NCBI GenBank assembly: GCA_004123355.1
Contig: SCHM01000004.1
Location: 6,909,017-6,973,016 of the forward strand
DNA: 64,000 nucleotides
Direction: 5' to 3'
DNA from: Amphirosellinia nigrospora
Lineage: Eukaryota; Ascomycota; Sordariomycetes; Xylariales; Xylariaceae
Shown here: piece after piece, positions 7,578 through 55,639 of the stretch
How positions within the stretch are numbered: the first letter of the stretch is position 1
Layout of the letters: each line of letters opens with the position of its first letter
The notes under the pieces: generated by a model
Databases searched by the model: none
What the model saw: the letters and a program-made list of their open reading frames with translations, nothing else
Told to the model about the DNA's origin: nothing
Made by a program: the position numbers and the translations under genes

Positions 7578-8697
7578 TTAGCTCGGGGTAAGCTTCAAGA
7601 GCCGGCCACTAGGACCATCCTCGATCACCCAGATGGCGCCGTCCTTGTCCTCTCGGATACCGCGCATGCGCTTACCCATTGAGATACGCTGAGCCTCCTT
7701 CGCTGTGTCACCAGTGATGGTCACGCGTACGATTGATTGTGAGCTGAGACTGGTGATGATGGCATTGCCCGTCCAGCTGGAAAACAGGTCGCCCTTGTAG
7801 ATGATCAAGCCGGCCGGGAGATGACGGGGACCCAGAAGGCCTTGGGTGGTTCGATATCTGGGCGTGTGCTGTGCGCGGGGATCGTCCGGCCGTCGTAATG
7901 GCGGCCCTCGGACACGACCGGCCAGCCATAGTTGGCGCCCGACTTGATCAGGTTGAGCTCGTCGCCACCCATAGGCCCCATTTCGACCTCCCAGAGACGG
8001 CCCTGGGCATCCCAGTCAATGCCTAGCGGGTTCCGGTGGCCTAGCGACCAGATCTGCGCCTGGACGGCGCCTTGGCTGGCGAATGGGTTGCCTGCGAAGG
8101 CGGTGCCGTTGTCGTACAGCTTAATTACCTTACCGAGGTTGCTGGTCATGGACTGGGCCGGGGTCATCTGGTTGATCTCACCGGACGAGATCCATAGCGC
8201 GCCGTCGGGGCCGAAGAGCAGGCGACAGGCGAACTGGAGTCCCCCGAGGCCTTCTGCGAGTGGCGCCAGATGACCTGGAGGCCCGATAGCGCGCCGCCGC
8301 CGTTGGTATCCAGCGTCAGTTTGGCCTGCGCGACTGCCCCGCCTGCACCGCCAGTGCCACTCTCGGCGTAGCTGAGATATATAATACTGTTCTCAGCGTA
8401 TTGGGGGTGTAAGGCGACGTCGTGAAGACCGCCCTGGCCGCCGTAGGCGACAGTAGGCACACCGGTGATAGTACCCGTGGCCTTGGTGGCCGGGTCGACG
8501 AGACGTAAGTTGCCTCGTCTCTCGGTGACGAGGATACGGTTGTCGGGTAGGAAGGCAATCGCCCATGGCTCGGCATGGGTGGTGATAACTGTCGACGTGA
8601 ACGGTTGCTGGCGAGTGTCCAACTGTTGCGATGGCACGGCCAAAGCACCGGTCACCAATGCCAGAGCGTAGGTGAGAGAAAGTCCGAGATGCATCAT
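7578..8697 (-). CDS. Secreted PQQ-dependent glucose/sorbosone-type dehydrogenase, two frame breaks
   Basis: Glucose/sorbosone dehydrogenase family: six-bladed propeller enzymes that oxidise sugars with PQQ, usually extracellular. The start at 8697 gives an N-terminal hydrophobic signal peptide (MMHLGLSLTYALALVTGALA). Family landmarks follow in order: the WAIAFLPD blade motif, GGQGGLHDVALHP, LFGPDGALW, SLGHRNPLGI, the GPMGGDELN motif followed by NYGWP, and a C-terminal RMRGIREDKDGAIWVIED blade. The chain is complete but lies in three frames. The first switch is at a G run (plus-strand C5 at 8241-8245) and the second at a C run (plus-strand G3 at 7816-7818). One added base at each gives ASGGLQFACRLLFG and VISPAGLIIYKG, both family-like. 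I read these as assembly errors, although real inactivation is possible. A TATA-like box lies about 110 bp upstream. Confidence 0.82.
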
Positions 8698-10805
8698 TTT
8701 CAGGGCGCCCTTTGCTTCCCAGTATATTGTGTTGCTAGACAATCGAGGGTTAAGTGGCTCGCGTCGTGTGGAAGCTCTTAAGTTGTATGTCCCCCAAGGT
8801 AGGTAGGTATATAAGAAGTGGGAGGGCTCGAGCAACCTCCTGTCCAATTTCAGGCTATTCCCGGCCTTCGACGACGTGGTACATGTAAGGTTAATCAGTG
8901 TATCTGCACTTTATAACCGTCCCTATCACCTGTATCCTATAATTCTCCATGGATCGACAGGTTTGGCAAAAGCCCGGCATGGCATTCCTACCCCAATCCG
9001 GCACGACCTTGTCTCTGTCACGGTGGCTGCCGGCGCCAAGACTGGGTTGTGTGCTATAATTTTCTGGGCATCAATATACAAGTTATCAAACTGGTCGTCA
9101 TCGTTCTTCTTCCCTGCACGATACGGGGGTTCTCGATCCGTCTCCGCTATCTTAGAATGTGTGATATCATTGTTGAGCATAACAGAGTCAAATGCTTACT
9201 ATCCCGTTGGGGCCGGAATTATTACGTTTTCAAGCGAAAATAGCGGGGGCCAATCATATGGGTCAGAACCCTTCCAAGAAGTTCACTAGTAAAAAAGTCC
9301 AGACAAACTGCAATACAGAACCAAGTCGACATTAATGTCCAAGATGCCACTGATCCCAACAGTTCCTTTTCGAATTACTACACAATGCAACGCCGCATTG
9401 TTGGCACGTGTAATAACGGAGTATTGCTGAGATGGTCGATTTACAGTTTACTAGTTATGATTGATTTAACAACATATTTCGTTGTTTGAAAGAACATAAG
9501 GGACACAAACCATGTTTTGTAAGTTGTATCTTCAGGTGCTGTTGTATCGTAGAAGACTCTTTAGAACTTGCTAATGCGCTGTTTTGAATTGCCACTTCCT
9601 GGCCAAACCTCTCCAAGATCTCAGAATATAGGCACTTGCAAAATCTATTCCGACTTATAATAGGCTTCTTTCGGTTGTGAAGTTAGAAGTACGTATTTGT
9701 AATAGCCACTTCTATTTAGATTATTAGCTTAGTAAAATATGAAAGGAAAGTGCTTCATACCAAGTAGAGACAGTTATAACAGGACGAAACTTGAAATGGT
9801 AATTAATCTTATATTAGTTAGAGGAATTGCGAAAGTTAAGCAAACATCGACCACCTCTGGGAAGTAACACAGAGTCAATAGAATAATTATGTCATGTAGC
9901 CATGAAGCTACGAACAACGGAACAAGTACCGATTTAGTTATAAACGACCAAGTGATATTGCTGTTGTTAATGACGCTTGGTAGATCTGATACTATAAATG
10001 CCTATTGTAATTAAATACGATATATTCATTATGCTTCGACTAATACCGTATATTGTCCCTAATTACCAACCTTGTCTTACCCTTTCCGGTATTTCTATAC
10101 TACTATTGAGCTCGGCTACTTCTTTCTATATGTTTAATTTTATTAGAATTTTAGAGTGAGGTTAAACAGATATTGGTGCAACGTTATTAGGATTTTGCCC
10201 ACGGGCTAAGACGATCGATGATTTGGACAATAAGCATTAAGAAATTGCGGGATTCGGGACTTACTCAGGCAAGGTTTATCAGATAGGTAGAATAATACAA
10301 TTTTATGGGTTTCTACAGATTTAATTAGGCATTAAGAAAGTTAGAGCTAGTGGGATCTCCGCATGCACCACCACGTTAAATCGACGGTTCGCGCCTAGTA
10401 TCTAATGTTACATCCGCGCGACAAATGCGGTTTTATTACGTCGCGATGTATGGCGGCAGGAATCAAAAGCCAGCAGTCCCGCTCATAGTGCTCCAATTTG
10501 CAAAAACTGTTCCGGTAGAAATTTTTACTATTTACTAACTTTGCTTAGCCCGGTACGGGTATCGTGGTCATGTAGGTAAATAAACATATGCAGGAGGCGC
10601 CACAAATTTGATCAGTGACTCCGTGACAGGGCGTCACAGCAAGCATTCTGATAGGTTGGCGATGCTTGGCAATGGTCTCCAACCACGCAGTAACCGCACA
10701 GCCCTCAATTTTGACTAAGGAAATATCTCTCTTTTAACAAGAGCTGCGCATTAATGCTCTCCGCCTCCTATCTTTCATCGCCCTCAGCCCCGACATTTTG
10801 AGAAC
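8698..10805. other. Intergenic; no gene recognised
   Basis: This is the shared 5' side of the divergent dehydrogenase (-) and NLR (+) genes. It is moderately A+T-rich from about 9300 to 10350, without the extreme CpA loss of the flanking blocks. No coding signal, RNA gene or clear repeat was seen. Confidence 0.4.
8808..8813 (-). promoter_or_regulatory. TATA-like box upstream of the sugar dehydrogenase gene
   Basis: TATATA on the minus strand about 111 bp upstream of the chosen ATG. It is supported by position and sequence only; no transcription start is visible. Confidence 0.3.
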
Positions 10806-13800
10806 ATGAAACGATTTTTCTCGGAAATTAAGAGCCCGCTAAAACGACAAGGGAAAGTCGGCGGCGCGCAGGATCAACAACACTCAAGCATCACTACCCA
10901 TCCACAAACTCTCGCAACTTGCATCGTACCATCCATCCCGACATTCCTATTCCCAATACCACCGAACCTGCCTCGGCCACTGCGAATGAAATCTCACTAC
11001 CTACTCCCGTCCTGAGCCATGATCTACCGACAATCCAAGACGCGGAGCCCGATATTTGGGCTGCTGCATACAAGAAGTTCGCTGAACGGGAACATGAGCT
11101 AGCCCGCGATTACAATACTCATTTGGGTACTGTCTCAAGCGGCGATGATACTGTCATGGGGACCGGTTTCTTAAGCCCCGGTTCGGCAAAATCCGTCGTG
11201 GAACAACTGCAAAAGACCCGAGAGGATAAACAGTGGCACGTCACTTTCCGCGGCAAAGACATTAAGTTTAGAGAGCAAGCCGAGAAGCTGACGAAAGTCC
11301 TCCTTTGGAGCAATGGTGTTGTTAAAGATGCACTGAGTGCGCAACCGTACGCAGCATTAGCATGGTCTGGCGTTTCAATCCTCCTTCCCGTAAGTGAATA
11401 GTAACTGTATTACATCACAGCACTAATGATAATACAGCTTCTTACCACTGGAGCCGCGAAGAACGATGCTATTCTCTCTCATTTTGACGAAGTTTATCGT
11501 ACCCAGATATATTGGAAAGCCTATCAGGATATCTCCCGAGGAATTTCTCTCAAATGACAATAGCATGATGACCGATTTGATCGAACTGTACTCACACATC
11601 TTTGAGTATCAAGCGCGGACTATATGTCACCTTTCAAGCGCTCAGCTCTCTCGTGCGTGGCAGAAAGTCGCCGGCTGGGATGACTGGGAAAAGCAGGCCT
11701 CTCATGTAAAAGATCTGAGCACGCACTGCAAAGAGCGCATGGAAACTTATCAAGACCAAGCAACTCAAGAAAGGTGCAACCGGCAGCTAGAGGAGATATA
11801 TAGATCACGAGCGGCACTTCAACAAATCTATGAGCTTTTGGAGGAAGAGAGGAAACAACAGAAAAACGACCATAAAGACCGGCTTGAGCGGGAACTGCTT
11901 GCCGACCTAGCAGCAGATCATGAAGAATATAAGAACTTTAACCCTACGAAAGTTCAAAACACGTGCGGATGGTTTCTAGAAAGCGATAGTTTCCGTTCCT
12001 GGCGTGATAGCGAAGAATCGAGCCTCCTCTGGGTCTCGGCCGGCCCTGGATGTGGAAAATCTGTGCTCTCACGATCATTAATCGACGAGTGTCAGCTCTC
12101 TACTAGCGCCGCAACCTCTATTGTCTGCTACTTCTTTTTTAAGGACGGTGATGAGAGGCGTGAGCACAGCGCCAACGCCATTTCCGCTATTCTCCATCAA
12201 CTTTTCATACGGGATCTAACTGGCAATTTCACGAGCCATGCCCTACCCAGACACAAGAATTATGGCAAAGCTCTAGCTACAAACTTCTCCGAGCTCTGGG
12301 ACACTCTACTTGATTGTGCCGCCACTCCAGATGCCGGAGAGATCGTCTGTGTTCTCGATGCCCTCGATGAGTGCAGGGGAAACGAGAGGAACGCCATTAT
12401 AAACAAGCTAATATCTTTCTTTTCCGACACTACGCAGGCATCTCATCGCTCATCTAGACTAAAGTTCCTCGTCACGAGCCGGCCCTATGATACAATTGAA
12501 CAAGCAATCGGACCTTATTACATTCTTGCTGCTTGCGAATTGATGGAGATGATCACTCTACAGCTGTCAGTGAGGATATTGACCGTGTGATTGATGTTAA
12601 GATCCCAGAATTAGTGGGTAATCTTTCTAACGAAGATCGTCGCCGCATTGCCGAGCGGCTCAAAGGAATGGAAAATCGGACATATCTCTGGTTACGTCTA
12701 ACATTCTCCATAATTAAAGAGAGCCCCAGTGATTACAGCAGACCCTCAGATGTCGAGGTTCTGCTGGATAGTCTTCCCGACGAGCACTCCAAGGCATATG
12801 AGAGAATCCTTGGCCAAAAAAAGTCAAAGTATACTCGTTTTCTTTTCCAGCTTATGCTTGCTGCGACACGACCTCTGAGCATTGATGAAGCGAACTATGC
12901 GCTTGCATTGGCGACAGTGAAAATTCCATTCACATCCCATTCGAAAGCCAAGGAGGGCCTCTGGGATACCGAGTCATTTAGGAAGATGGCAAAGAATTCT
13001 TGTGGGCTCCTCGTCGATTTTCATGACTCAAAGTTATCTTTCATCCACCAAACAGTGAGAGAGTTTCTGACAGAGCACCCAGGTGAGGGTGGCGAGTGGA
13101 ATTGGAGAGGACGCTTTAGGCTGCCCGAATGTCATAATTTGATGTTCCTTTCTTGCTTTCATTATCTACATCTACCGGAGTTGGATATTTCTGTTCAGGA
13201 TACAATGCCAAATGAGGATTTCTATCCATTATTTTCTTATGCAGCGCGGCACTGGCCCTTCCACTATAGAGAGCAGGATGTTGATACACGTGCCAATCTA
13301 CTTGGCAGAGCGCGGAACCTATGTCACGTCCGTTCAGGGAAGACTAAGATATGGACCAGAGTCCATGATAGCAACCTATGTTTAAATGGCACCGAATTAG
13401 ACATCGCGGCTTACTGTGGACTGGAACTAGTGGTCCGTGCTATCCTCGATGAGGATGCCACTATTGAAGCAAATGACGAGTACTATAATAGAGCGCTATT
13501 TGCAGCATCACTGACCGGATTCCCAGTTGTGGTTGAAATGCTTCTTGATACCGTGGCTAACGTAAACGCACCCGGTTGGTGGGGTGGTTTCACGCCACTG
13601 CAGGCAGCAGTATCTCTTGATCATTTGGGGGTGATTAGAGTGCTGTTTGAGAAGCGAGGGAGCAAGTCGAGGTTAGCAAGACTACTGTGACAATAGCCGC
13701 AGGGCTTAAAAACATGCCAAAGAGATTATGGCTCTGATTCTTAAGAAACGGGGAAAGGACTGCCAGATTGACAAGAGTACTATGGAAGGCATGATAGACA

Positions 13801-14511
13801 GATATCCCTTTTGGAGAAACATTTTACCTTCAATTTAGAGAATGAGGAACAAATCTATGTTACCGAAGGCGCTATAGCAGCGGTAACGAGAGCAACTTCT
13901 TATGGGGATGAGCTGGCGGTGTTGCTTTTGGACAAGTGGAAGGCACAAGTCCAGGTTACGGAGGCCGTCATGGTCATGGCAGCGGCAGCTTCCAGCAATG
14001 TGATTATGACTTTAATCCTTGAGAAGGGTGGAGAGCAAGCTCGGGTAACCGAAGCTGTCTTGTTAGCGGCGGCAAATAATCCCATTGGGGAAGATATCAT
14101 AAGTCTACTCCTTGACAAACTGGGGGAACAGGTCCAGGCCCAGGTAACTGAAGCTTTTTTGATAGCGGTGGCAGATTCTTACTCTGGAGAGAAGGTCATA
14201 GCCCTACTCCTTGAGAAAGTAGGGGAACAGGTCCAAGTAACTGAAGATTTTCTGATAGCGGTGGCAAAGAATAGTGATGATGGGCTACCGATTATGGCCC
14301 TACTTCTTGAGAAAGTAGGGGAACAGGTCCAGGTAACTGAAGCTTTTATGGAAGTGGTGGCACAGAGTCTTATGGGCCACAGATCATAGCTCTTCTTGTT
14401 GAAGCAGGAAAGCAAATTCAGGTTTCCGATGCGTTTGTGGCAAGGGTAAGGAATCTTTTTATGGATGAATGGATGGCATCTCTGCTTGAAAACGTGGCAA
14501 AACAAGATTAG
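10806..14511 (+). CDS. NACHT NTPase with ankyrin-type and degenerate LLLEK repeats (fungal NLR-like), several frame breaks
   Basis: Fungal NLR (STAND) receptor type, a family linked to self/non-self recognition and heterokaryon incompatibility. In order: an N-terminal basic MKRFFSEIKSPLK; an NACHT_N-like domain (IWAAAYKKF to QPYAALAWSGVSILLP); an intron at 11390-11437 with a CTAAT branch; a helical linker; then NACHT with Walker A GPGCGKS, FFFKDGDERR, Walker B VCVLDALDEC and sensor FLVTSRP. Next come the winged-helix part, ankyrin-like repeats (TELDIAAYCGLELVV, TPLQAAVSLDHL) and about ten 31-33-residue repeats. The frame breaks at 10832-10919, 11440-11560, near 12533 (T2), 13657 (G3), 13719 (A3), about 13790 and 14360. 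Most need one added base, three of them in homopolymers. The break after the intron goes the other way. The stop is at 14509-14511. The frame state is uncertain: partly assembly error, possibly also decay. Confidence 0.8.
13636..14511 (+). repeat. About ten tandem 31-33-residue repeats at the NLR C-terminus
   Basis: The unit is approximately LLLEKVGEQVQVTEAFLIAVA followed by a variable stretch. The units at about 14180-14350 are nearly identical at DNA level, while the outer units are diverged. Highly similar repeats of this kind are the usual ligand-sensing, fast-evolving part of fungal NLRs, but this unit is neither WD40 nor TPR and is only loosely ankyrin-like. Confidence 0.75.
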
Positions 14512-15813: not shown

Positions 15814-17112
15814 ATGGCACCCTTCAACATCCTCATCGTCGGCGGAGGCATCGCGGGCCCGGGCGCCGCTCACTGGCTATCGCGTATTCCTGGCGCCAAC
15901 ATCACGATCATCGAGCGCTCCGCAGAAATGCGAGCCTCGGGCCAACAGTTGGACATCCGCGTCGCAGGCGTGGATCTGATGAAGAAGATGGCATCGAGCC
16001 AGCCGTGCGAGCCGTGCGTTGCAAGGAACCCGGCACGCAGGTCATCGACACGGATGGGCAGACAAGGCCTACTTCCCAGCCGCCGAGCACGGCGGCGGAG
16101 CCAGAGCATGACGTCCGAGTACGAGATCATGAGGGGCGACCTAGTGAGGATCTTGTACCGTCTCACTGAGGACCACCCGAACGTGCGACACGTGTACGGC
16201 GTGACGGTTCAGGACTTCACGCAGAGACGAGAGCGACCCCGACGGCAAAGTCCACGTGACTTTCTCCGACGGCCGCCAGGACGATTACGACCTCGTGCTC
16301 GCTGCGGACGGAACTGGCTCGAAAACGCGCAAGATCATGCTCGGCCCCGACGCGCCCGATCCGCGACACAGGACAGGTGGCTACATCGGTTATTCAGCAT
16401 TCCCTCGCAGCCGTGGGACTCGGACAGGTCGACGGTGTGCCAGCTGCCTGGATCTCACATGTCGCGGATGATATTGACCCGGAAAGACTGTGCGGAGCTG
16501 ACCCGCATCTACATGATGCTGAACAAGCGGGACGATGCCGTCGATGCGGCGCTCAAGTCCGGAGATTTAACCGCTTTGAAGAAGGCGTTGGCTCATATAT
16601 ACGAGGGTGGCGCGTGGGAAACCCCGCGATTCATGGAGGCTTTGCTCAATGCGCCCGAAGCCGACGACCTATACTGCACGCCATTCGAAGAAGTTCGGCT
16701 TCCCGTGGGGTCTTGGTCGAAAGGGCGAGTTGTTCTCATCGGTGATGCGGCACACTCCGGTACAGCAAACGGATACGGAACCTCGTGGGGCCTGATAGGA
16801 CCTTATCTTCTTGCCGGCGAGCTTGCGACTCGATATGCGAAGGATAAGGCCCTGCCTACCGCATCTATTATAGAAGCAGCAAAGGAATATGAGACATTGT
16901 GGCGCCCGATAGCGCTTTCAGGCCATGGAGGAAATGAGTGGCTTGGGTCCATGCTTCCTCCCCGGTCGGTCATCGGTATCAACATCATGAACTGGATCGC
17001 TGGGGCCTTTGCGTATCTGAGGCTCGATAAGTATATTGGGATCGATGGGGCGATCGGGAAATGGAAGCTTCCAGACTATCCCGCATTGGATCAATATCAT
17101 GAATCGAATTAA
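15814..17112 (+). CDS. FAD-dependent monooxygenase (aromatic hydroxylase type), frame-scrambled in the middle
   Basis: Class A flavoprotein monooxygenase, which would use FAD and NAD(P)H to hydroxylate a small, often aromatic substrate. The start at 15814 is preferred to 15760 because it places the dinucleotide-binding motif ILIVGGGIAGPGAA at the N-terminus, as in the family. The C-terminal half shows VVLIGDAAHSGTANGYGTSWGL, the second FAD-binding (GD) motif. One frame is open from end to end, but it is not the ancestral frame throughout. Between about 15990 and 16395 the conserved sequence moves through the other frames (EPAVRAVRCKEPGTQVIDTD, KAYFPAAEHGGG, then HVTFSDGRQDDYDLVLAADG) and returns at FSIPSQPWDSDR. 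One added base at 15990 (G2), 16064 (A2) and 16393 (T2) repairs three of the switches. The switch near 16235 needs a two-base change. Confidence 0.8.
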   Translation: MAPFNILIVGGGIAGPGAAHWLSRIPGANITIIERSAEMRASGQQLDIRVAGVDLMKKMASSQPCEPCVARNPARRSSTRMGRQGLLPSRRARRRSQSMTSEYEIMRGDLVRILYRLTEDHPNVRHVYGVTVQDFTQRRERPRRQSPRDFLRRPPGRLRPRARCGRNWLENAQDHARPRRARSATQDRWLHRLFSIPSQPWDSDRSTVCQLPGSHMSRMILTRKDCAELTRIYMMLNKRDDAVDAALKSGDLTALKKALAHIYEGGAWETPRFMEALLNAPEADDLYCTPFEEVRLPVGSWSKGRVVLIGDAAHSGTANGYGTSWGLIGPYLLAGELATRYAKDKALPTASIIEAAKEYETLWRPIALSGHGGNEWLGSMLPPRSVIGINIMNWIAGAFAYLRLDKYIGIDGAIGKWKLPDYPALDQYHESN

Positions 17113-19054: not shown

Positions 19055-20084
19055 ATGGCACCAACCAACAGAGCAGCCTTCTACCCTCCGACAAAGCCCC
19101 GGCGCTAGTCGTCGATTCAGCCCCCTATCCAACAGCCGCCGCCGACGAACTAATCGTCCGCGTATCCGCGACGGCGATCAACGCCGTCGACTTCAAGATC
19201 CAGGCCGCGGGCGCCGCCGTCTTCCCCTTCGTCAAGTATCCCTTAGTGGGCGGCTTCGACGCCGCCGGGACCGTCGTCGAGGTCGGCGCGGGCGTCGCCG
19301 CGCACAAGCCCGGCGACCGCGTGCTCGTGTTCCCGGGCGACTTCGCCTCGCGCGAGGGCGGGTTCCAGAACTACGTCGTCGCGCGGGAGGAGTTCACGAG
19401 CAAGATCCCCGCGAGCGCCTCCTTCGTCGATGCCGCCGTGTTGCCGACTGGCATCGCCACCGCCACGACCGCGCTGTTTCAGTACGTGGGGCTGGAACCC
19501 CCAACCGTCGGCACGAAGAAGAACAGCCGGGACAAGACGGTCCTCGTGTCGGCGGGCGCGGGTGTCGTAGGCAGCAACGCGATCCAACTCGCCGTGGCAG
19601 CGGGCTACGAAGTCATCACGACCTCGTCGCCCAAGAACTTCTCGTACTGCACATCGCTCGGCGCCGCGAAGGTATTCGACTACAATTCTCCCACCCTCGC
19701 CGCCGACCTCAAGTCCGCCCTAAAGGGGAAGGAGCTAGGAGGCGCCATCTCATGCGTCGTCGAGAGCAACGCGGTCGTATGGGAGGTCGCGGCCGCCAGC
19801 GAGGGAGCAAGAAGGTCGCCTGCACGATCTTGTTCTCGCAGGACGGTGTGCCGAGGGATTACCACGGAGATGGTCCACGCGTATTGATCAAGGGCGACCC
19901 TCTCGCCAAGGCCATCTTTGAATATTTCTTGCCCCAGGCGCTAGAGAGTGGGGAGTACAAGTTTGAGCCGAGGGCGCGGGTCGTCGGAAAGGGATTGGAA
20001 TCAATCCAGGCTGCGTTAGATGTTTGCAAAACGGGCTATATGTCTCGCGAGAAGCTAGTTGTTACGCTTGAAGATGAAGCATGA
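19055..20084 (+). CDS. MDR-family oxidoreductase (ToxD/enoyl-reductase-like), two frame breaks
   Basis: Medium-chain dehydrogenase/reductase of the zinc-free quinone/enoyl reductase branch often called ToxD-like. It is expected to be a cytosolic NADPH-dependent enzyme, and the substrate cannot be told. The protein starts MAPTNRAAFYPPTK. It then shows the GroES-like part (AINAVDFKIQAAG, GGFDAAGTVVEVG), the Rossmann motif VLVSAGAGVVGSNAIQLA and the family signature AAKVFDYNSP, and ends EKLVVTLEDEA. It uses three frames. The switches at 19096 (a single G, where GG gives KAPALVVD) and at 19803-19805 (G3, where G4 gives SEGSKKVACTILF) each need one added base. A longer reading frame beginning at 18903 overlaps this gene but is out of phase over the N-terminal two thirds and should be ignored there. 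No introns were seen. It lies 1.9 kb after the monooxygenase on the same strand. Confidence 0.8.
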
Positions 20085-29440: not shown

Positions 29441-29469
29441 CAACAACACTACCCGGGTTAGTGTTGCTG
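29441..29469. other. 29-bp near-perfect palindrome centred on CCCGGG
   Basis: The arms CAACAACACTA and TTAGTGTTGCTG are complementary apart from one base and a one-base offset. It could be a dimeric regulator site or cruciform; no function can be assigned. Confidence 0.5.
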
Positions 29470-30648
29470 TTTGCTTCAGAGGTTCCCCGCTCGTAGATCC
29501 GGCGTGGTGGTCGCTATGCTTTTTTCGGTGTCATGACTAATTGGTTCCTGGACTGGTGACACGGCTCTTCACACGGGTTTCATGTGCGGTGAGGCGCATA
29601 GTCTCTTGAGGCTGAAGGGGTATTTTTAGATTCGCGCGCATGATGATGTACGGCGCAGGCTATATCATGAAACGATATTAACTGTATTTGAGGGTAGGTT
29701 CGCCGCACTACTGGGAGAGACTTAAAGTTGAGACTTGAGACGAACCGGTCATGATGTGATACACGCGTAAGACAGAATTGTGTTGTTAGGACCTCGCAAG
29801 TCCGAGTATAGGGCCTATATTGACATCTGTTGCGAGTTTGGTGGTCTCCATGAGCTAGCCCTGGCTATATATATTCAGTCTCTTTGCTCTTCAGGTCTAT
29901 CTTGGAGCTCGGGTCACGTATCGTGAGATTAGGTGATGCCTTGTCACGGGAGTTGGTAATGCTAAAATGGCAATTATAAGCATGAATTATAAGCAGGAAA
30001 ATGATTATCTATGTCACGGAGTCACCACAGACAAAAAGGATCATCTGTAAATAATGATATTGCATTCGCAGAGGTAGATTTAGAGACCTTCGCGCAACGA
30101 CAAGTAAAGGTTACTAAGCTTGCTAATGAAACTAAGATCAAGCCAAGTAATGTATGCGAGTGGGCTGAATAAGCATACCTATACAGCGACCCATTTCATT
30201 AATGCACACAGAGAAGCAAGCTACCTCGCGTGTATAGGTAGATAAAGCCTTCCCTGCTATACAGTAGTTGAGTTACGACATCGCTCTGTCTACGGTGGTA
30301 GTTCTTGATTCTGTTGGTCTCCATGGGTCTCTGTTCCTGTAGTATACAGCTGGATATTGAATGAAAAACATGCCCTCTATCTGGCAGCTGGTTACCCGAT
30401 TTCCAAGGCTTACTTGCTACCAGCGGAATTAAATGCTCTGCCTCTTCAGGGGTTACTGGGATTTTTAAAAAGAGTTTTGCACTAATAGAAGCCGAAAGAC
30501 TCATAGTTGTGGGATCGACCCGTGGTGAGGGCTCCAGACCGGGGATCTCTCCAAGTCTTGATGACTGAGTACTCAAGGAAATAAATTACATGAATCTCAG
30601 AACAACGCATTCCTGTCTCGACACAATCCGTTCCCTAAGCTCGCAAGG

Positions 30649-32638: not shown

Positions 32639-33249
32639 CTTGAACTCGATGTTTGTTATAGTTATATTTATAGAACAGAGTAGGCCACCTTTGCAAGAAA
32701 TTGCTACCAGGATTGCTTGCCAAACGTGATGTACAACGGCTCGCCTCTCACATATTGCGACTCTAAATGTTGCACTTGTAGCCTAATTCGCCACTCATAA
32801 GCGAATTACAGCAATAAATGACACTAACGTCACCACACTGCATGCAGTCGCCTCTGAAGCCTACCTTATCTTGATTTCTCATTGGCTAAGTCTCAATCGG
32901 AGGTTAGGGTGGGGGAAGTCTTACTGCTGAAGGAATTTTTCATGCTTCAACATCTGTCAGCAAGCCCCGTCTGTGTAGATAGCAAGCTGAATATAGGTAT
33001 TTCCCCTCTTTAGGAATGTGATTTGACGTAATGAGGCCGTGGCGCTCAAGGCGACTCGACTCGACTCTGCCGAGTGCTTGCCACGCTATTTTGAGATACC
33101 CCCAGCTTCCTTGATATCTTTATCTCTCCTTCTTCCATATCAACAAGGCTCTGACCATTTCTGCCCCTCTTCGCGAAGATTGAGTCCGATTTCATTACTT
33201 ATCTTCCCTTTCATCAACCACTAAGGGTTCACGTCCGTTGCCATTTACA
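32639..33249. other. Divergent intergenic promoter region
   Basis: These 611 bp separate the start codons of the DUF7708 gene (-) and the AAA+ ATPase gene (+). They may be co-regulated; no specific binding site was identified. Confidence 0.4.
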
Positions 33250-36200
33250 ATGACTAGCCACGAAGCAAATAACTCTGTTATCGAAACCCCAGTACCCTCT
33301 AATGGAGAGTCCGGTGCTTCCACGATAGATACTTCACCTATTGGAGCGACCTCTACTCATATTGATGACCTCGGAAGTTGTGACCTGCCAGAAGATCCGG
33401 GAAGCGCTAAGCTTTTGTTCTGTTACCGAGAAACTGGCCTTTTCTAACATCCATAAAGCCAATGTCGTCACGAATAACCCACCCAACCTTCGGATCGCGG
33501 TAGGGACAGCAGAACTCATTGTTCCAGTTGGAGATTCTAGGGCTAAAACCATCGATGCGAGGAACGAGGAAGCGAACATATCAACTAATGAAGAAAATCG
33601 CCCGGAGATAACCCCTTACACAAAAAAAAAGTTCATAACTGTGCGGCACTATGAAGGGGACTTCTTTAAATTACCGTGGGATCTCTGTCAGACGCGCGAG
33701 GTCCGCGGCATTCTATACCTCTATTTTTTATTGCTAACTTCTTACAGGGTATGGAAAACCTCGTCAAGGTCACCTATGAGGACGAAACGGCAAAAAACGA
33801 TATCACGAATGGCAAATACAAGATTTATACCGTTGATGGAAATCGAATCGTTCGCGATTGGTGGGACATGTTAGTACAGCCAGACTGGAAAGTCGTCATC
33901 CGTCTTGATTCGCGGAAAGGGTCCGGCGGTGCTTCCTTGCCAGATCCTGCCTCTAATTTTGACCACTGCTCTGATGATGTGTTACACGGATTTTCAGCCC
34001 TCGTTTATTTGTTCCCTTTTGGGTTATATTGGCTACACAGGCCCAACGGAGGTCCGTTAGGGTAGCCCGAAATCTGTGTATATATAGGCTAGTCAGGTCC
34101 CGAGTCCTCTAGAAAAGAATCTGGAGAACAAAAGGTCCTTTAACGCCATAGCCAATTATTAGATCTGAAGGAATGAAGCTATTCCTAAGCCCTTAAATAG
34201 AGCCCTTGTGATAGATAATTGGCTACCACTCGAAGCCCCTCTTCCCTTTCGCAAAACGAAAAGTACCCCCCTTTTTCGCGCTAGCTTGACCAGGCCTTGC
34301 GACGAGAAATATTGCCTAGTGCCTACTCCGCGCTAGCGAACAAGTGCTTCGATTAACTAAGTCTACAAAAAGAATTACCCAAGAAGAATTACCTCTCCCG
34401 CGCTAGCTATCGGATAACTTCTCGATTCGACCAGGTTATGCAGGATAAAATATTAAAAGCAAAAACCTCGAATTACGCTAGCATAACCAGGTCCTGCGAT
34501 AAGGTACCCAGACCTACACCCCCAGGCATAGACCTACATACCCAAGCACAGACCTACACCCCTAGGCACAGACCTACACCTATATACCTATACATAGACC
34601 TATACACAAACCCTTTCCTTTATTGCGCTAGCATTGCTAGGTCCTGCAAAATATAAACCACGAATCTCGAGGCGAGCCTTAAGAAGGAGGAGGATAGTAT
34701 CACACGGATTTTCAGCCCTCGTTTATTTGTTCCCTTTTAGGTTATATTAGCTATACAGGCCCAACGGAGGTCCGTTAGGGTAGCCCGAAATCTATGTATA
34801 TATAGGCTAGTCAGGTCCCGAGTCCTCTAGAAAAGAATCTAGAAAGCAAGAAGTCCTTTAACGCCATAGCCAATTATTAGATCTAAAGGAATAAAGCTAT
34901 TCCCAAGCCTTTAAACAGAGCCTTATAACATAATGGTCGAGGCGAATCTAAAGAAGAAAAGCAAAATAATGGGACCGTTCGTGCACCAAAAATTACCTAC
35001 AAGATCTCATACTACTCGTCGTATGGGCCTTACGGGCAGGGACCACTACTTCGTAGCTTCTCCTATGATAAGGCTGTCGTACTGGAGAGGCCAAGTTCCA
35101 AAGCCGACGAGTTTCGTGTCCTCGAGGAGAAGACAGCCGTGATAGTTGCACGGGACAGCGAAGATTATTACAAGAAGGGTATCCTGGGCCAGAAGCCTAA
35201 ATTGGATGTTGGCGACATGGTGGGCAGGAAAAGCTTATGCATCCACTCGCCGTTTTTACTAAACATACTGCGGTCAATCATCAAGTACTCCTCGTCAAAA
35301 ACGTCTGGAAATAACGCAGATGAGTTGGAGTATGGTGAATTTTCATATCCCTATGCAGACCTCTTTTACCACAAGGAGGACCTACTCAACAGCAGGAATA
35401 ACTACTGGGCCACGAGCGAATCACACATCTGAATACAATGCGGTATGTGATCGCCACATCGACTTTTTACTCGAATATCTCGAAAACGAGCCGATCGTCC
35501 AGCAAAAAGCGTCGGAAGAGAGATGGGCTAAGAAGACACCAACGACAACTTTTGCAGGATTTTGGCTGCTGATGAAGCCAGGGTCCGATGTGTACGTCGA
35601 AGAGGATGGACAGTTAAACGCGTACGTGGTTGACAGGGTGTCTGGTGGTATTAACTTTGAACCTCATGGCCCATCGTCTGTCAAGATTGAGAGTTATGTA
35701 ATTCGTGTGTGGAATATGGTATACGATGGGCAAGTGTTCAGACGACAAGCTAAAAGCATTGAGGTGCCGGCGTTTGACAATGAGAGAGACATATTGTCGC
35801 TACCGGTGTTCCCGGTGATGTTTCAAGACAACAAAGATGGTGGTGCACGGAAGAAACAGCTTATCGACCGCGGGAAGAAGGCTTTTCAATACTCTAAATG
35901 CCCTATATTCTTAGAGTACACCGGTTTAGGCCTTAAGCCAGGTTGGAAAAAAGTGAGCGGCTGATGAAGCGTCGAGACGGATCTATTTGATTGCCTTGCT
36001 AATAGCCTCTTTAGTACAACCGAGCCCGAGTGATAGTTGAGCATGAAACTCAACCATGGAATGAAATCGGATTCACGGAACCGGAGGAAGTCACAATTGA
36101 TGCTGGAAGACCGCCTGGAGCACCTATGATACCTGGGCCACCTGTGGCACCTTGGGTATTGCGAATGCGCCATATAGAACTTGACCCAATGTACACATGG

Positions 36201-37583
36201 TACTTGGCAAGAAGCAAACGGACATCGGTGAAAAGGCAAGAAGCCCGCGCTGCGAGTGCAACGACTGCAAGATTATCAACACTGCGCAGGAAAGATATAA
36301 TACAGTAACTTTCGGACTATGACAAGATCAGTCCAAAAGAGACTAGCGAGCTTTCGGATCATCAGTACATGCTGTGCATGTCTCACATGTTTGGGTTTAT
36401 CTTGAAGGATCGTAGCTATGGTAAGCACCTCTGGAACTCTGTTAATACCTAGTAATGTACTTACCTCTACTTTAGATCTTCTCGACGTCGACTGTCTATC
36501 TGACGTCAGAATAGTGGAAAATGCCATTGATCGATTGGTCATGCGACCAGAAGCGAATAAGGACACAATCAAGGCGATCGTCAAGACGTACACAGAAAGC
36601 AGTCAAGCAGGCCTCTTCAGCGCCGATTTCATCCAAGGGAAGGGAGAAGGCCAGATTTTTCTATTACATGGACCTCCAGGGACTGGGAAGACGCTGACGG
36701 CTGGTATGCATAACGCTTGATCAACCAAGTCGATACTGACACTTCACCAGAGTCTGTCGCAGAGTACACGAGGCGGCCGCTGATCAGTATTACTGCGGCC
36801 GATTTGGGCCACGAACCCATCGAGCTCGAAAAGAATCTCCTTCGGTTTTTTACAGACGCCACAAACTGGGACGCAATTGTGTTGCTCGACGAGGCAGACA
36901 TCTATCTCGAGAGGCGTTCAACTAACGATCTCAGACGCAACAGTATTGTATCAAGTAAGAGCACCTAAGAAGATCAAAAAAGAGTTGCTGATAAATCCAT
37001 TTTGCTACAGTCTTTTTGCGTGCAATGGACTACTTCCAAGGCATTATGTTTTTGACTACAAACCGGGTGGGCCATTTTGACGAGGCGTTTATGTCTCGCA
37101 TCCATCTATCGATTGGGTATGAGCGCCTCGACGAGCAAGCACGGGGGTTAATATGGGAAAACTTCTTTCGTAAGCTCAAGGAAGAACATAAGAACGGCGG
37201 ACCAGAGATCCGCTATGAATATGAGGCAAAAGAATATGTCAAAAAGAGCGAGGAGGTCAGGAAGTTGCAATGGAATGGTCGTGAAATTCGCAACGGTAAG
37301 TATGGTCTTACCCTTATGATTCAATGCTGACTTAATGATTGAAGCTTTCCAAACCGCTGTTGCACTGGCTACATTCGAAGCCAATACGGCCAAAGAAAAG
37401 GGTATCCCCAACGAAAAATGTATTCCAGAAATCAAGGAGGGCCACCTTACGCAGGTCGTGAAAATGTCGGCGGCATTCAAAGAATATATCACAGCGACGC
37501 ATGAAGGTTACGAGGATGCAGATTATGCATATAAGCTAGGGAATCGAAATGACACAAGAGGGGGCGAGGTTCGCAGGAAGTAG
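33250..37583 (+). CDS. AAA+ ATPase with N-terminal DUF7025-type region, interrupted by an LTR element
   Basis: The start at 33250 is MTSHEANNSVIETPV. The N-terminal half matches the fungal DUF7025/AAA architecture (EGMENLVKVTYEDE, then YDKAVVLERPSSKADEFR, VRDWWDML, FAGFWLLMKPGSDVYV). The C-terminal AAA+ module has Walker A LLHGPPGTGKTLTA, Walker B IVLLDEADIYLERR, a sensor-1-like FLTTNRVGHFDEAFMSRI and a lid region. Introns: 33701-33747 (donor GTCCGC), 35953-36014, 36421-36475, 36704-36750, 36955-37010 and 37296-37344. A 951-bp LTR element (33980-34930) sits in an exon. Without it and one target copy the frame reads SDDGRGESKEEK, without a break. Other frame breaks lie near 33410, 35405, 36206 (G2, one base short) and 36312. 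As sequenced, the allele is disrupted. The substrate is unknown; relatives resemble unfoldase-type AAA+ proteins. Confidence 0.82.
33980..34213 (+). repeat. 5' LTR of the TRIM-like element
   Basis: 234 bp, aligned end to end with 34698-34930. It contains a short inverted repeat (AACGGA GG TCCGTT) conserved in both copies. Confidence 0.88.
34510..34610 (+). repeat. About 20-bp tandem repeats inside the TRIM-like element
   Basis: AGACCTACAC-type units begin at 34510, 34530, 34550, 34570 and 34596; the first three intervals are exactly 20 bp. Five (G)CGCTAGC motifs occur elsewhere in the internal region (34278, 34330, 34400, 34476, 34625). Confidence 0.85.
34681..34697 (+). other. Polypurine tract of the TRIM-like element
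   Basis: AAGAAGGAGGAGGATAG abuts the 3' LTR. It is the usual plus-strand primer in LTR retroelements and fixes the element's orientation as plus. Confidence 0.7.
34698..34930 (+). repeat. 3' LTR of the TRIM-like element
   Basis: It differs from the 5' LTR by 19 transitions, no transversions and one single-base gap by my alignment; most differences are G in the 5' copy and A in the 3' copy. Confidence 0.88.
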
Positions 37584-39576
37584 GGCCAAAACATGATAAT
37601 CTTGGATATATAGCAACGATTCAATTTGGTGGATACCTCTCATAATTGTATAATTATCAAATCTTTTCGGAAGTTATAATTAACTTTGACTGTAGGCGGC
37701 ACATACTATCTTTGTTCCAGCTTCCTGAAGCAGGTGTTTGATACCACATAACGCTTTAAAACCTACAGATACGTCAAATATTAGCGACATGCTTCATATA
37801 TGTAGCAGGCAGAACTACATCTAGATCGGGTAGAGGACACCCGAGATATTCATTCCTGGATGAGCTTGGTTGTCCTGTGCTTTGGTCTTGGGGCCTAGGC
37901 CATATTTCTCGTCAGGGTAGGGGATGCCAGGACAATGGCCCCCCCCCCCTCTAAACCAAAAATATCACCCCTTATTGGCAAGAGCCCTCTTAGCAATTTG
38001 CTATGCTTTATGAGCGAAAGATATCTTACATCCTACTTATGAAAGCAGTTCGTCGCTTCATAATACCCGGTTAATTAGGGTTGGGAATGGGTACTACTGT
38101 AAGTTTGGCGGAGTTATTATTTGATGTCAACATGGCTCGAGTTGTAATGTAGAAATGTCTCGGTTCTATAGTGGCTTCAACACCATGGAGTGGCACGACA
38201 TATGGCTTTGTCACATGGCTCAGGAGATGCGAAAAAGGAAGGAATCTTAAGGCGTTTGGTTAAAGCCGTGCACTGGAATGGTATATTTGCATAATATAGT
38301 CCGGGCTCGCCATGTACATGGTAAAAGCACTAGGAGATGACGATACCTATGCTACTCACAGCGTTTAAGCGCAGTATTAATTATTACCAAAACTAGAACC
38401 TATTTTAAAAGTAGCTTGGGCCACGGTAAATAATACGTACGAACATTTCATAGTCTCACACAAGCATTGGCACACACATTTCCATAATTACATAGACTCT
38501 TATACCTTGAGCCATACTACTAAGTATACGAGGCAGACCGAATGCCAGGAACAGGGATATAGATATAGGGATTAGACAGAACAAAGAGACTCTCTGTATA
38601 TAGTCATTAGTCACATAAAGCCCACGGAGATGGCTTCACTGGTTCTCCCTGCAACAGCAGATGTCTACACCCTATCCCTAAAAGGTCACTGACACTGAAA
38701 AAATTGAATATATTACTAAGTCTACCGCGAATAAGATGTGAAAGCGACCTCATCACTGATGATGCTAAATTTCTTCAGCGACTTGACTGACGGCGCCAGA
38801 AACCATGCTTGCGTCATGAATTGATTCACTAACGCGTCCGATCGTTCGACTTGTTCTCGGTAACAGGTAATTTAGTAAGAAATATTTAGTGCGCTGAGCA
38901 ATTATGCTCCAGTAAGAGCGGGTCGTAGTTCTTGGTGATAAGACTTGCTTGCAAGTGTGGGAATTGACAATGTCGTTATATGATCCAACAATTTCGTGGT
39001 GCGAGGTGAGTGCACATGGTTCTTTGCCTCAAAAATACGTCATCGAATGTCAGGGGTTGCCAACATGAGCAAATTTCGACTAGCTTCATACCACCTGACA
39101 ACATATACCATGATGATGCTCCAATATATTATCGCTAAAGAAAATGACAATGTGCTCAATCCTACTCATAACGCTTTGCGATAATCTACTTATTTGGCCC
39201 TGGTAACCCCGCTATGAACGAGTTTTTGATGCAGCTTTTTCTTACGAGCCCGTCTATTGGTGCGATTGCATTTATTTCTACCCAAAGGGGTAATTCTACA
39301 TCACAATGTTCACCGCATGCGAAACATGGGTCTATATGTCCGGACCACACCGGAGTTTGGCAGGTTGATTTCGCCGCAAATTCGGTCCGTACGGGTTCTT
39401 ACAGCTCGGATCTTGAGTGCTTGTTCTCAGTCCGGGAAATGACCCGTGCATGGGATAGTATAAAGCTAGGCCATAGCGATGCCCATCTGAGACTCAGATC
39501 TTAGGTAAGTTGTCAAGGTATTCAGGGTTTCCACCGTTTCCGCAAGCTCAGAGAAGACCTGCCACCGTTGTTAAGG
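37584..39576. other. Intergenic; no gene recognised
   Basis: Contains an 11-base C run at 37939-37949 and no family-matching ORF. Two plus-strand ORFs (38996-39184 and 39214-39504) carry no recognisable motif and are not called. Confidence 0.4.
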
Positions 39577-41344
39577 ATGCAGATACTAAGTATCCTTCTT
39601 CCGCTTCTCGTCAGCGGCTGTACCGGGCTCCACCATCGGGAGACCGTAAGCAACGCTATTCCTCCTAGTCAGGACCCATGGTATACCGCGCCACCGGGCT
39701 TCGAGTCCGCAGCACCAGGCACGATCCTCCGCATCCGGCCGGACCCGAGCAACATTACGGCGGTCGCAGACGCCGCCGCAGCCTACAACATCCTGTTCCG
39801 ATCGACGGACACGCGCTACCGGCCGTCATGGGCTGTAACGACATTTCTTGTGCCCAAGAAACCCCTGCAAACCAGAGACGTCAGCGATAGAGCGGCGGGG
39901 GACAGCAAGCCGGCATTACTCTCTTATCACGTTCCCTATAACTCTGCTAGTGTCGATGCTAGCCCAAGTTACCTCCTCTCCACGAATTTTGGTGTGAACG
40001 GGCCGGGGGTCACGCCCCAAACGGCTTACATCGCTGATGCGCTTAGCCGTGGCTGGTATGGTTCGTTTATCTCAACGCTGCTTGGGCTTCACCCATAATG
40101 ATATCCTGCTTTGAAAGCCATGTCCTTAACTCACCATGAGCTCACTAAATTGGGTTAAAACTAACCTGACACATTACAGTCAATGTCCCAGACTTCGAAG
40201 GCCCAACAGCGTCCTTCGGGGCCGGCCCACAAGCTGGCCATGCAGTTCTAGACAGCGTTCGCGCTGCGCTATCGTCAGATCCATTACATACTAAGCCCGG
40301 TAATGCCCGTTATGTTATGTGGGGGTACTCAGGAGGCTCGATAGCAAGCACCTTCGCGGCCGAATTACAGGCTTCGTACGCGCCCGAGCTGAACTTCGCC
40401 GGCGCCGCCCTCGGCGGCATAGTCCCGGATCTTACCGAGGTCTTCAGCAAGCCGATTGGCAACAACTCTGCGGTGATACCCGCGGCCTGTTAGGCGGTAA
40501 GTATTGAAATCTCACCTGGACCATAACCCTATAGCATCATCACCTTATAGAGCTCAAACTCCTAGTAGTTGATTCGCTAATAGCTCTCTGTCGTGTGATA
40601 GTTACTGCGCAATACCCTGCTGCGCGCAAATTCCTCATCAGTCAATTGAAGACGTCGGGTCCGTATAACGCAACAGGTTTTCTGCGTGCGTTGAATTTCA
40701 GTGCTCCGCAATCGCAGGCGTACTTTGGCTTCCAGAATATCAGCGAGTTTTTCGTTAACGGGCTCGGGGCAATTTACAAGGCGCCTGAACTGGTTCGCGT
40801 CTTTGGGGATAACGAGTACGAGGGCTATCACGGGATCCCGCAGATGCCCTTGTTCGTGTACAAGGCGATTCACGATGACTGTAAGTGGTTTTCTCTCATT
40901 TTCGTATTTCTATCTTTGTCTCCTTATGCTGCTCAACTTGTGCCCCTCCTTTCCCATCCCACGTGCGGACAATTCATAAGCAGGCAAGAGATAAGAGAGG
41001 ATACCGATCGTATAAAAGGGACATCGAATAGATCAGAGATAGAAAAAGCTGACTTAGTGCTCCCTCCCAAATCTGTAGCCAACGGCATCGCCACATCTGA
41101 TGATCTCATATCTCACTATTGCAAAGTTGGCACGAATATCCTATACCACCGAAACACGATCGGCGGGCATGCGGATGAGTTCATCAACGGCGTACCGCGG
41201 GTGTTTGAGTTCCTATCCGCTGTGCTCGATGGATCTTACGCGCAGAAATACAATACTACCGGCTGTACCTGGGTCGATGTCACCGTCAACGTTACGGCCC
41301 CGGCTAGCGGCGAACTTCGAGGTCAGCTACTTGTGCGGGGGTAA
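39577..41344 (+). CDS. Secretory lipase (LIP-type, alpha/beta hydrolase)
   Basis: Extracellular triacylglycerol lipase of the Candida secretory-lipase family. The ATG at 39577 gives a hydrophobic signal peptide (MQILSILLPLLVSGCTG). Next come QDPWYTAPPGFESAAPGT, an N-terminal landmark of the family, and then the nucleophile elbow in MWGYSGGS. The likely acid is in TSDDLISHYC and the likely histidine in GGHADEFI. The introns are at 40061-40179 (donor GTTCGT; joins to give GWYVNVPDF), 40497-40601 (joins to LLGVTAQYP) and 40881-41078. The last is 198 nt with no in-frame stop, so an ORF reads through it, but the intervening residues are foreign to the family. One frame break before the second intron is at 40484-40485: a third G would give IPAGLLGV. 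With that base the gene looks intact. Confidence 0.83.
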
Positions 41345-42203
41345 AAGTATGGCTTGGTTAGGAAAAATTGATATTGTGATCGTTAAAAAAACATAGCCAT
41401 TTTACTATCTAGGTATATACAGATGCTAGCTAAGAAAATGGAAGCTATATGTAATTTTCCCACTTCGGAAGCACAAGATATCTCTGCAGATAACCTACCT
41501 ACCTAGGTAGGTATTAAGTACCTATGTATGATATCCGCTTTGATTGATACTTGCCACTTCATTAGAGAAGGCTAGTAGCAAAATGGGGAACCCACTTACC
41601 TAGTTAGGCAAGTACCCCTTCCCCTAGAAATTAAGCTTGGTCGGTAAATCGGCCAATCAAGAGAAGGCTCCACTACGAGACCCGACTGTTTCCCTAACCA
41701 CTTCTCGAAGCTATTCGCAGCTTCATTCATCCTTCCGCTGTTAACCTTCACTTCTACGGCAACCTCCCATTTCTCCCTCGCATTGCGCCAACTACGGACT
41801 GCCGTCCTCCTGCGACGCGCTGTAGCAACGCCCTCAAAAGTCCCCGCTTTGCACAGTGCCAAAGACCTTGATTTAGAGTTTCACACAGCTGCACGCCTGC
41901 ACCCAAAGGCGTTTCCGTTCCCTCGTACCGTCAACCGCGAAACTTCAACTTCCGTTCTGCCACATCTCCACGCTGCGGTCGGCCGAGTAATCGTTTGCTA
42001 TATCGATCGATATATTTTCGGCACCTACGATTTTCGTTGGCTCTGCTTGAGTTTGGATTCCCCACGCATGACACAATCCAACTCTTACCCTAAGCACGCT
42101 ATCACCAATCCATCACGTCGCATAGCGCCGACCACGCCATCGTCGACTCTCTCCTTGTTTCCACCGCCCGCACTAGGAAAACAAATCAATCATCAAACAG
42201 ACC
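41345..42203. other. Intergenic: lipase 3' flank and TAF6 5' region
   Basis: A perfect 16-bp palindrome ACCTACCTAGGTAGGT lies at 41497-41512. ORFs over 41596-42250 are unsupported and probably lie in the TAF6 promoter/5' UTR. Confidence 0.45.
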
Positions 42204-43706
42204 ATGGCAACCAATCGAGACGCGCGTGGTTCTGCTCAAGAACCTGGTAACAAGCCGGCTTCGAATGAACCACGGCTCCTTTGGAACCCCGAAAACGTTC
42301 GAGACGTGGCCGAGTCGGTCGGCATCGCGTCTTTCAACGAGGAGGCTTTGCGTACCTTGTCACAAGATGTCGAGTATCGTATTGGTCAGGTCATCGCTGA
42401 GGCTGTCCGGTTCATGCGTCTAGCAAAGCGCACCTCGATGACCGTTAAGGATGTTTCTCTGGCCTTGCGCGTGTTGGATGTTGAACCACTCTACGGATAC
42501 GATGCGACGAAGCCGCTCCGATACGGAGAGGCTACCATGGGTCAACCTTTCTTCTATATCGATGACGAAGAAGCCGATTTTGAACGAGTCATCAACGGTG
42601 CACTGCCCAAGGTCTCTCGCGATGCAAACTACACAAGTACGTATTTTTGGCGATGGGGGTGTGGCTATCCGCTATACGAACGATTGCTAACTCTTCTATT
42701 CACTCCAGTTCATTGGCTTGCTGTCGAAGGTGTCCAACCGACCGTTCCACAAAACCCTACATCCATGGAGGCGCGGACGCAAGATCTTCTACCCAAGGGT
42801 CCTGGTGCTAACCCTACCCTTGCCGCCCTTTCTGGACACGACAATCCTAATTTCAAGCCGGCTGTTAAACATGCCGTCTCTCAGGAACAAATCCTTTTCT
42901 TCGAGAAGGTTCAAGCCGCTCTCTTGGACGACAACCCCGATCCCGAGGTTCAACGACTTCGCCAGGCGGCTCTGGAAGCTGTTATTGCTGAACCGGGTAC
43001 CCACCAGCTAATGCCGTATTATGTCAACTTCATCTCCAACCAAGTTACACATTATCTGGACGACCTCTTTGTTCTGCGACAGATGATGGAGCTCGCGAAT
43101 GCTCTGATATCGAACGAACACATATTTGTCGACCCATACGCCAGTGCTCTGTGTGCCCCGGTTTTGACATGCTTGCTGGGACGACGGCTGGGATCGGAGA
43201 GTGGAAGCGATGCTGTCAAAGAGCAATATCAACTTCGTGAGATGGCAGCTTCTTTGATCGGACAAATCGCCAACAAATACTCGAGCACTAACAGATTACT
43301 ACGACCCAAACTGACTCGATCTTGCCTCAAGTCATTCCTGAACCCCACCATGCCGCCCCAAGTCTGGTACGGTGCGGTCCTCGGCATACTTGCCGCTGGC
43401 GGCTCCGAAGCTATCAAGGTCCTCGTGATGCCAAACCTAAAGGCGTTTGACTCAACGATGCTGCAGCCCCTGCGAGAGAAGAGCGAGGCCAACCTTGACT
43501 TTGAGATGGTGATTGGTGGCATTTTGAAGGCAACCAAGTCTCTCTCGGACGAAGATATTACGATGGACGGCGTAAACGGGGACACAAGCGATCGTGAGGC
43601 CAGCCAAGTCAAGGAATTCCTGGGCGACATCATCGGGGAGCGCGTGGTTCGGCTCGGCAACCACCACATCAACCAGGCCGTGCTCGACGCCATGAACTTT
43701 CAATAG
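42204..43706 (+). CDS. taf6: Transcription initiation factor TFIID subunit 6 (TAF6)
   Basis: TAF6 pairs with TAF9 through a histone fold inside TFIID (and SAGA) and is essential for RNA polymerase II transcription. The N-terminal histone fold runs from [19 protein letters not shown] through [18 protein letters not shown] to [11 protein letters not shown] (about residues 20-95). The conserved linker [17 protein letters not shown] follows, and then the TAF6 HEAT-repeat domain to the end. One intron, 42637-42708 (GTACGT, branch GCTAAC), is a multiple of three without a stop, so an unspliced ORF of 500 codons exists. Splicing replaces 24 foreign residues with NYTIHWLAVEG. No frame break was found over the whole gene, which makes it the only clean multi-hundred-codon gene in the window. 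Confidence 0.95.
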
Positions 43707-44318
43707 GACAGAAGATTCATGACACCAGAATACTCTCTTTCTGGACAAATTGAGGGGACTGATATTGCTCTGTGGAGAGGACGCGTGTATTGACGGGGAA
43801 ACGTAGGCGGCCATAAGTTTTTTTTATTTTTATTCGTTGTGTCTTACGGATCGGGCGGCGTTTGGTCAATACCCCTGGAGTTGGAACTAGCCAGACACTT
43901 ATATAGTGGCATCTTCTACTCCCGATCATGTAAATGGCGTTGGCTGTGCATTTGGGTGGAGTTCGAGGGAAAAGGTATGAAAAATTCCGAGCCGTATTTG
44001 AAGTACGGTGTTCATAGATGCTTTCAGGTGAAGTTAGAAGCCAGAATACAGCAAAAAAACCAAAACATAGAGGGACAGAAGAAATGTACAAGTGTTGTAT
44101 TCATGCATGAGATGTTTGTACACATCTCATCCACGCGTCATAGAAAAGCACCAAAAGGATGTCTGTCGGTACCTCTTGGCCTAACCAATACAGCCCCATC
44201 ATCACATATAGTCATCACTCTTCACCCGCACCTAGCCAGCTCGAGTTTATCAATAATTGTCATATTTTCCTTTCTTTGTTTTTACACTACAAGCCCATCC
44301 CTCGCCCCTCTATCTCGC
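43707..44318. other. Intergenic between convergent taf6 and sdhC
   Basis: 3' flanks of both genes. No further feature was recognised. Confidence 0.5.
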
Positions 44319-45101
44319 TCACAAGAATGCCGTAAGACCGAGGGCACTGACGAGACTCGCACCCCAGATCCCCCAGTTGCCGGCGTGGATGACGGGCTTG
44401 TTGAAGCCCTTGGCGAGGTCCCAGATGAGGTGGCGGGTGCCGTTGAACAGGTGGAACACGAAGGGCCAGGTGACGAGGAACTTGAGCCCGCCCTTGACGG
44501 CGAGGGGGAGGCCGGCCGCCGCGGCCGCGAGGGTCGTCGACTCGAGATGCCACCCCGCCAGCGGGGCCGCGAGGTACGAGATGGAGAACACGTACAGCGC
44601 CGCCGTGAAGCCGCCCCCGTGATTCGTGTCCACACCGAGGAGGAGAACCACGTCTGCTTGTAGTCGTAGGCCGAGAGATGCGGTGCGACGGGGCGCTGCC
44701 GACGCTGTGAGGCGAGGAGGGTCTGGGCTTCGTCGGGGGTTACTTTTTCGGTTGATACGGAGCTGGAGGAAGGGGGTGTTAGTCAGTTGGCTTGGCTTGG
44801 GCTGGCCGACGGGTGTTGGAGGGTGCAAGGTCACGGACCGGGTTTGCAGGCTTGTGAGCATTAATCTTGGGACGGCCTGGGAGAAGGCATTGGGTCGCGA
44901 GACTATGATGTTTCTGTCAGTCTGTATATTTGCGTGCTTGTTTCTTTTCGTGGCTTGCAAGCGCCGTCTAGAATGTGACATGTAGCGCCTCATCTTGAAC
45001 CGAGTGCCATATCATCCCCATGTCACCACCAAAGAAAGCTCGCACATGGTGCGTTCCGTACCTTGCTGCAGCGCCCTGACGCCAACTCGTTGAACGTTCA
45101 T
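44319..45101 (-). CDS. sdhC: Succinate dehydrogenase cytochrome b556 subunit (SdhC), one frame break
   Basis: Membrane anchor of respiratory complex II in the mitochondrial inner membrane; with SdhD it binds haem b and ubiquinone. Exon 1 starts at 45101 (MNVQRVGVRALQQ, a presequence). Intron 1 is 44903-45061. Exon 2 reads SRPNAFSQAVPRLMLTSLQT, and intron 2 is 44763-44838 (rare donor GTCCGT). Exon 3 has RPVAPHLSAYDYKQTWFSSS, the family's quinone-site region, then WTRITG, three hydrophobic segments and the haem-ligand region FHLFNGTRHLIWD, and ends ALGLTAFL. The frame slips at 44614-44618 (G5 on the coding strand): one more G gives RITGGGFTAALYVFS. The gene is essential for respiration, so an assembly error is much more likely than a true lesion. 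Confidence 0.9.
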
Positions 45102-55630: not shown

Positions 55631-55639
55631 TAAGTGGTT

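Follow-up and report, generated by a model that had tools for sequence, protein, structure and literature searches.

The window analysed here, a stretch of 64,000 nucleotides, holds a block of ten genes. An initial annotation had reported nine of them as interrupted by changes of reading frame. Do these interruptions record the fate of the genes, or errors in the assembled sequence? The features of the block are as follows, with window coordinates and strand.

7578..8695, minus strand: glucose/sorbosone dehydrogenase-like gene (Pfam GSDH), in three frames with two breaks
10806..14510, plus strand: NACHT/NPHP3_N NTPase with ankyrin and DUF7104 repeats (Pfam), with a frame change near 12533
15814..17112, plus strand: FAD-dependent monooxygenase-like gene (Pfam FAD_binding_3), in frame pieces
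19055..20084, plus strand: zinc alcohol dehydrogenase/enoyl reductase-like gene (Pfam ADH_N and ADH_zinc_N), with two frame changes
21400..23330, minus strand: transcription factor-like gene with a PH_TRF2_HOY1 domain (Pfam) and a putative homeodomain (by eye)
30640..32640, minus strand: DUF7708 gene (Pfam), with a candidate break near 31193 that no family match confirmed
33250..37583, plus strand: ULD_2/DUF7025/AAA+ (AAA_lid_13) gene (Pfam), holding an LTR-flanked insert, with a candidate break near 36206 that no family match confirmed
33979..34930, plus strand: LTR-flanked, TRIM-like insert inside the AAA+ gene, with 226-bp direct repeats
39570..41344, plus strand: secretory lipase (LIP) gene (Pfam), with a candidate break near 40484 beside a possible intron
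42177..43706, plus strand: TAF6 (Pfam TAF and TAF6_C inside a single ORF)
44322..45103, minus strand: succinate dehydrogenase cytochrome b subunit, SDHC (Pfam Sdh_cyt), with one frame change near 44614

The frame breaks are truly present in the assembled sequence. In the GSDH gene, profile positions 2–112, 112–254 and 243–332 are spread over three overlapping ORFs, and no positions are lost across the breaks. In the NACHT gene, family profiles place NPHP3_N on one side of the frame change near 12533 and the downstream domains on the other, and inspection by eye reveals more frame changes past 13650 in the 3' part. The gene ends in DUF7104-type repeats (window positions 13830–14510), and its last part contains, by eye, a stop that could represent genuine decay rather than assembly error. 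The monooxygenase gene changes frame five times by eye between about 15990 and 16400, after which some 700 bp are clean; a codon-usage frame model detects one switch in this gene, near 16226, and two of its middle frame pieces had no Pfam match. The alcohol dehydrogenase gene changes frame by eye at about 19080 and about 19805, the second of which also appears in the frame model, and its C-terminal frame gave no match in the Pfam scan. The putative homeodomain, recognised by its WFQN motif, lies within 22821–22980 and by eye runs through frames 0-1-0-2-1, amounting to four breaks in about 160 bp; two of its pieces were scanned against Pfam and neither had a match. In SDHC, one frame carries the Sdh_cyt match from profile position 37 onward, and the N-terminal part reads by eye in another. 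The lipase match stops just ahead of the possible intron at 40484.

In total, 15 breaks were placed in the window: two in GSDH, one in NACHT, five in the monooxygenase, two in the alcohol dehydrogenase, four in the homeodomain and one in SDHC. Thirteen of them leave the frame expected of a one-base loss, and the remaining two that of a one-base gain or a two-base loss. The claim that nearly all breaks are losses therefore holds in that losses dominate, and has to be modified in that shifts in the opposite direction occur. The initial annotation also named 16 short runs at which one added base would restore the frame. Fifteen of these runs are exactly where it put them, and the run at 13657 is off by one. 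Among the breaks that it tied to these runs, those in GSDH and at 12533 in NACHT were confirmed by profiles, and those in the monooxygenase, alcohol dehydrogenase, SDHC and homeodomain were seen by eye with partial support, whereas those at 21504, 31193, 36206 and 40484 could not be confirmed. Its listing was also incomplete, naming three of the five monooxygenase breaks, one of the two in the alcohol dehydrogenase and two of the four in the homeodomain.

The surroundings of the gene block bring to mind pseudogene decay, in which real indels would have inactivated the genes of a dispensable block bordered by AT-rich, RIP-like sequence. The block itself has 49% GC, and it is enclosed by flanks of 10.7% GC (positions 1–6000) and 13.5% GC (positions 48001–64000), both with RIP-type dinucleotide ratios. 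Several of the broken genes (NACHT, monooxygenase and lipase) are of types that a fungus can often do without, TAF6 is intact, and one gene bears a genuine LTR-flanked insert. However, SDHC lies in the same block and is also broken, the GSDH profile is continuous over its breaks, and breaks also affect housekeeping genes on other contigs, where the density of frame switches is similar. Taken together, this makes decay a very improbable explanation. As pointed out in the initial annotation, TAF6 is clean, with both of its domains in one open frame; if breaks occur about once per kb, it is unsurprising that one of ten genes should escape them.

The evidence from other contigs comes from conserved families that were sought across the genome, namely CCT, HSP70, class I synthetases, myosin, P450 and HSP90. 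Genome matches numbered 25 for CCT, 20 for HSP70, 16 for myosin heads, 14 for the synthetases and 109 for P450. The junction analysis covered all CCT, HSP70 and synthetase matches, 15 of the 16 myosin matches and 37 of the 109 P450 matches; the last were those with an obvious neighbour, with some pairs passed over, so that no P450 rate can be derived from them. On other contigs, CCT, HSP70, HSP90 and myosin genes consist of abutting pieces in different frames. Among 60 junctions between neighbouring pieces, 30 were intron-like, one kept the frame and 29 were frame shifts, and 23 of these 29 leave the frame of a one-base loss. A strict count that accepts a net length change of at most four bases keeps 23 of the 29 shift junctions and drops six with a larger change. 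Together with three HSP90 junctions worked out by hand, these well-placed junctions comprise 20 losses versus six others; in three of these six the net length change is -2, so that two bases may have been lost. In CCT and HSP70 there are 16 shift junctions per 25.9 kb of matched sequence, or about 0.6 per kb.

The CCT, HSP70 and HSP90 shift junctions are located on six contigs (C1, C4, C5, C6, C7 and C8). HSP90, for which a single gene was found, is divided into four abutting pieces by three frame changes, one a loss and two gain-type, and its first piece additionally reads through two TAA codons. As HSP90 and CCT are essential in yeast, the fungus could hardly survive with both of them broken. 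Decay would be expected to stay within a single region or within genes that can be spared, which is contradicted by the broken SDHC in the window and the broken CCT, HSP70 and HSP90 genes elsewhere.

Another possibility is that the window alone is poorly assembled and the rest of the assembly is good. Its breaks are indeed clustered by eye, with five in a monooxygenase segment of about 400 bp and four in the roughly 160 bp of the homeodomain. The frame model, whose training set consisted in part of the sequences that were later scanned, gave five switches in the window, where it covered 7.8 kb of coding DNA (0.64 per kb). Four regions that were not selected for breaks gave six switches in 7.1 kb of coding sequence (0.84 per kb), and six regions selected because they contain a CCT or HSP70 gene split into several pieces gave 17 switches in 22.7 kb; five of these six contain a shift junction and one an intron-like junction only. 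The unselected regions were picked by round coordinates, and two further ones at 11–12% GC were excluded. In a benchmark, the model recovered 99 of 186 planted losses and made six false switches in 136 kb, a false-positive rate that is a lower bound because the benchmark blocks were already free of switches. As the model recovers only about half of the planted losses, the true rate is probably nearer to one per kb or more. The window therefore has no special status: its break density resembles that of the unselected regions. This similarity, along with frame-shift junctions on at least six contigs, leaves a purely local fault with very little probability, about as little as decay.

Breaks that occur genome-wide with one favoured direction might instead be mended in expression, by ribosomal frameshifting or by insertional editing of mRNA. 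That a genome can bear many frameshift sites is reported for Euplotes (PMC10235951, PMC4759687). Euplotes resembles the present case in that many genes of a single genome change frame; it differs in that its sites are reported to be +1 shifts at stop codons (PMC10235951, PMC4759687), whereas the shifts here mostly leave the frame expected after loss of a base and have no motif in common, and 5S rRNA genes vary too. Recoding is contradicted by several observations. A slippery heptamer of the form X XXY YYZ occurs in none of the 20 loss intervals, and no 4-, 5- or 6-mer is common to these intervals beyond what is seen in random coding intervals. Moreover, the shifts go in both directions, and losses are also found in 5S rRNA genes, which are untranslated. 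We consider recoding even less probable than decay or a local fault. A variant in which genes lack single bases genome-wide, and insertional editing repairs the transcripts of both protein-coding and some RNA genes, is the most improbable of the explanations weighed here.

The 5S rRNA genes are dispersed and belong to at least two sequence types. We compared 19 near-consensus copies, defined by at most eight substitutions; this left out 14 more divergent copies of the 33, one of which has a single-base gain. Six of the 19 read C4 for C5 and two read G3 for G4, and the same copies contain three other single-base losses and zero gains, so that eight of 11 losses sit in the C5 or the G4 run. The C4 form appears on several sequence backgrounds; three otherwise identical copies have it in common, and it could represent true variation. 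Length also varies among the 5S genes of the second type, which are outside this loss count. For tRNA, six identical copies were error-free; the comparison covered seven of 58 matches, six of them of one identical type, and is uninformative because these copies contain no run over three.

With broken CCT, HSP70 and HSP90 genes on other contigs, a similar density outside the window and losses in 5S rRNA, the evidence bears out the initial annotation in its choice of assembly error over decay. Its diagnosis is thus supported in substance, although its stress on homopolymers and on loss alone was overdone. Contraction of homopolymer runs was its proposed signature, and long runs appear only mildly enriched at the breaks; short runs near breaks are to be expected almost everywhere. 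A run of at least two lies inside 6 nt of 98% of coding positions, and a run of at least three inside 15 nt of 68%. As such runs are found near almost every coding position, mending a break by extending a short run is nearly automatic.

We therefore compared the loss intervals with planted losses, a test that supersedes an earlier one of 12 junctions against an undisturbed background (P 0.10). A run of at least four is present in six of the 20 loss intervals versus 3.2 expected under random losses (P 0.07), and the mean longest run at the 20 loss junctions is 3.15 versus 2.77 expected (P 0.02). Random losses and losses only in runs of at least three fit about equally well and are indistinguishable by this test. 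The data fit a mixture in which long runs suffer additional losses, as in published long-read errors (PMC12007338, PMC7500977). A model with losses solely in runs of at least four is ruled out, as seven intervals contain no run over two, versus 0.0 expected.

Published long-read assemblies offer comparisons. Of 305 conserved genes examined in nanopore-only assemblies of the fungus Drechmeria coniospora, fewer than one-sixth were at full length before polishing, and homopolymers were the site of most errors in the unpolished chromosome-level assemblies (PMC7500977). The likeness lies in the fact that most of the conserved genes tested there were not full length before polishing; the difference is that long-read polishing there added more insertions than deletions (PMC7500977), whereas here losses prevail. 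For MinION assemblies, the Kastor paper ties deletions to runs of 2–8 nt, mostly of 4–5 nt, with a few at non-repeated bases (PMC12007338). Those genomes are mainly bacterial and their errors were shown by reads and references (PMC12007338), whereas the errors proposed here are deduced from the assembled sequence.

We infer that the frame breaks are almost certainly residual indel errors, mostly one-base losses, of a noisy long-read consensus that was insufficiently polished. Noisy long reads would have yielded a consensus without adequate polishing, in which leftover indels, mainly single-base losses, persisted. In coding sequence these errors would occur about once per kb throughout the assembly; they would be somewhat commoner in longer homopolymers, and would strike housekeeping genes and 5S rRNA genes too. 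Several points weigh against this reading: the mildness of the homopolymer enrichment, which makes pure contraction of long runs too simple a model; the chance that the C4 form of 5S rRNA is real; the six clean tRNA copies; the two gain-type changes versus one loss in HSP90, together with the two TAA codons in its first piece; and the excess of insertions after long-read polishing in Drechmeria. If the breaks are errors, they are not a real feature of the genome and tell nothing about gene death or the biology of the affected genes. A density of roughly one break per kb of coding DNA would be enough to harm most genes. Until the present assembly is polished, its gene calls and pseudogene counts are untrustworthy, and so are inferences of gene loss drawn from it.

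The fungal assembly that holds the window comprises 48.1 Mb in 11 contigs. Eight of these were sized, four at 8.2–13.8 Mb and four at 1.3–1.5 Mb, and the latter might be small or accessory chromosomes. Two of six further stretches of the genome are AT-rich like the flanks of the window (11–12% GC). The genome seems to undergo RIP-like substitution and insertion, and neither process is the cause of the frame shifts. The LTR-flanked insert is a real mutation and not an assembly indel. It is about 950 bp long, and its 226-bp terminal direct repeats are 93% identical without gaps, with all 16 differences being transitions. It has at least 45 further matches in the genome; at least six matches, counting the insert itself, are long and at least 40 are shorter. 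An imperfect 5-bp repeat, TGATG/TAATG, is a possible target duplication.
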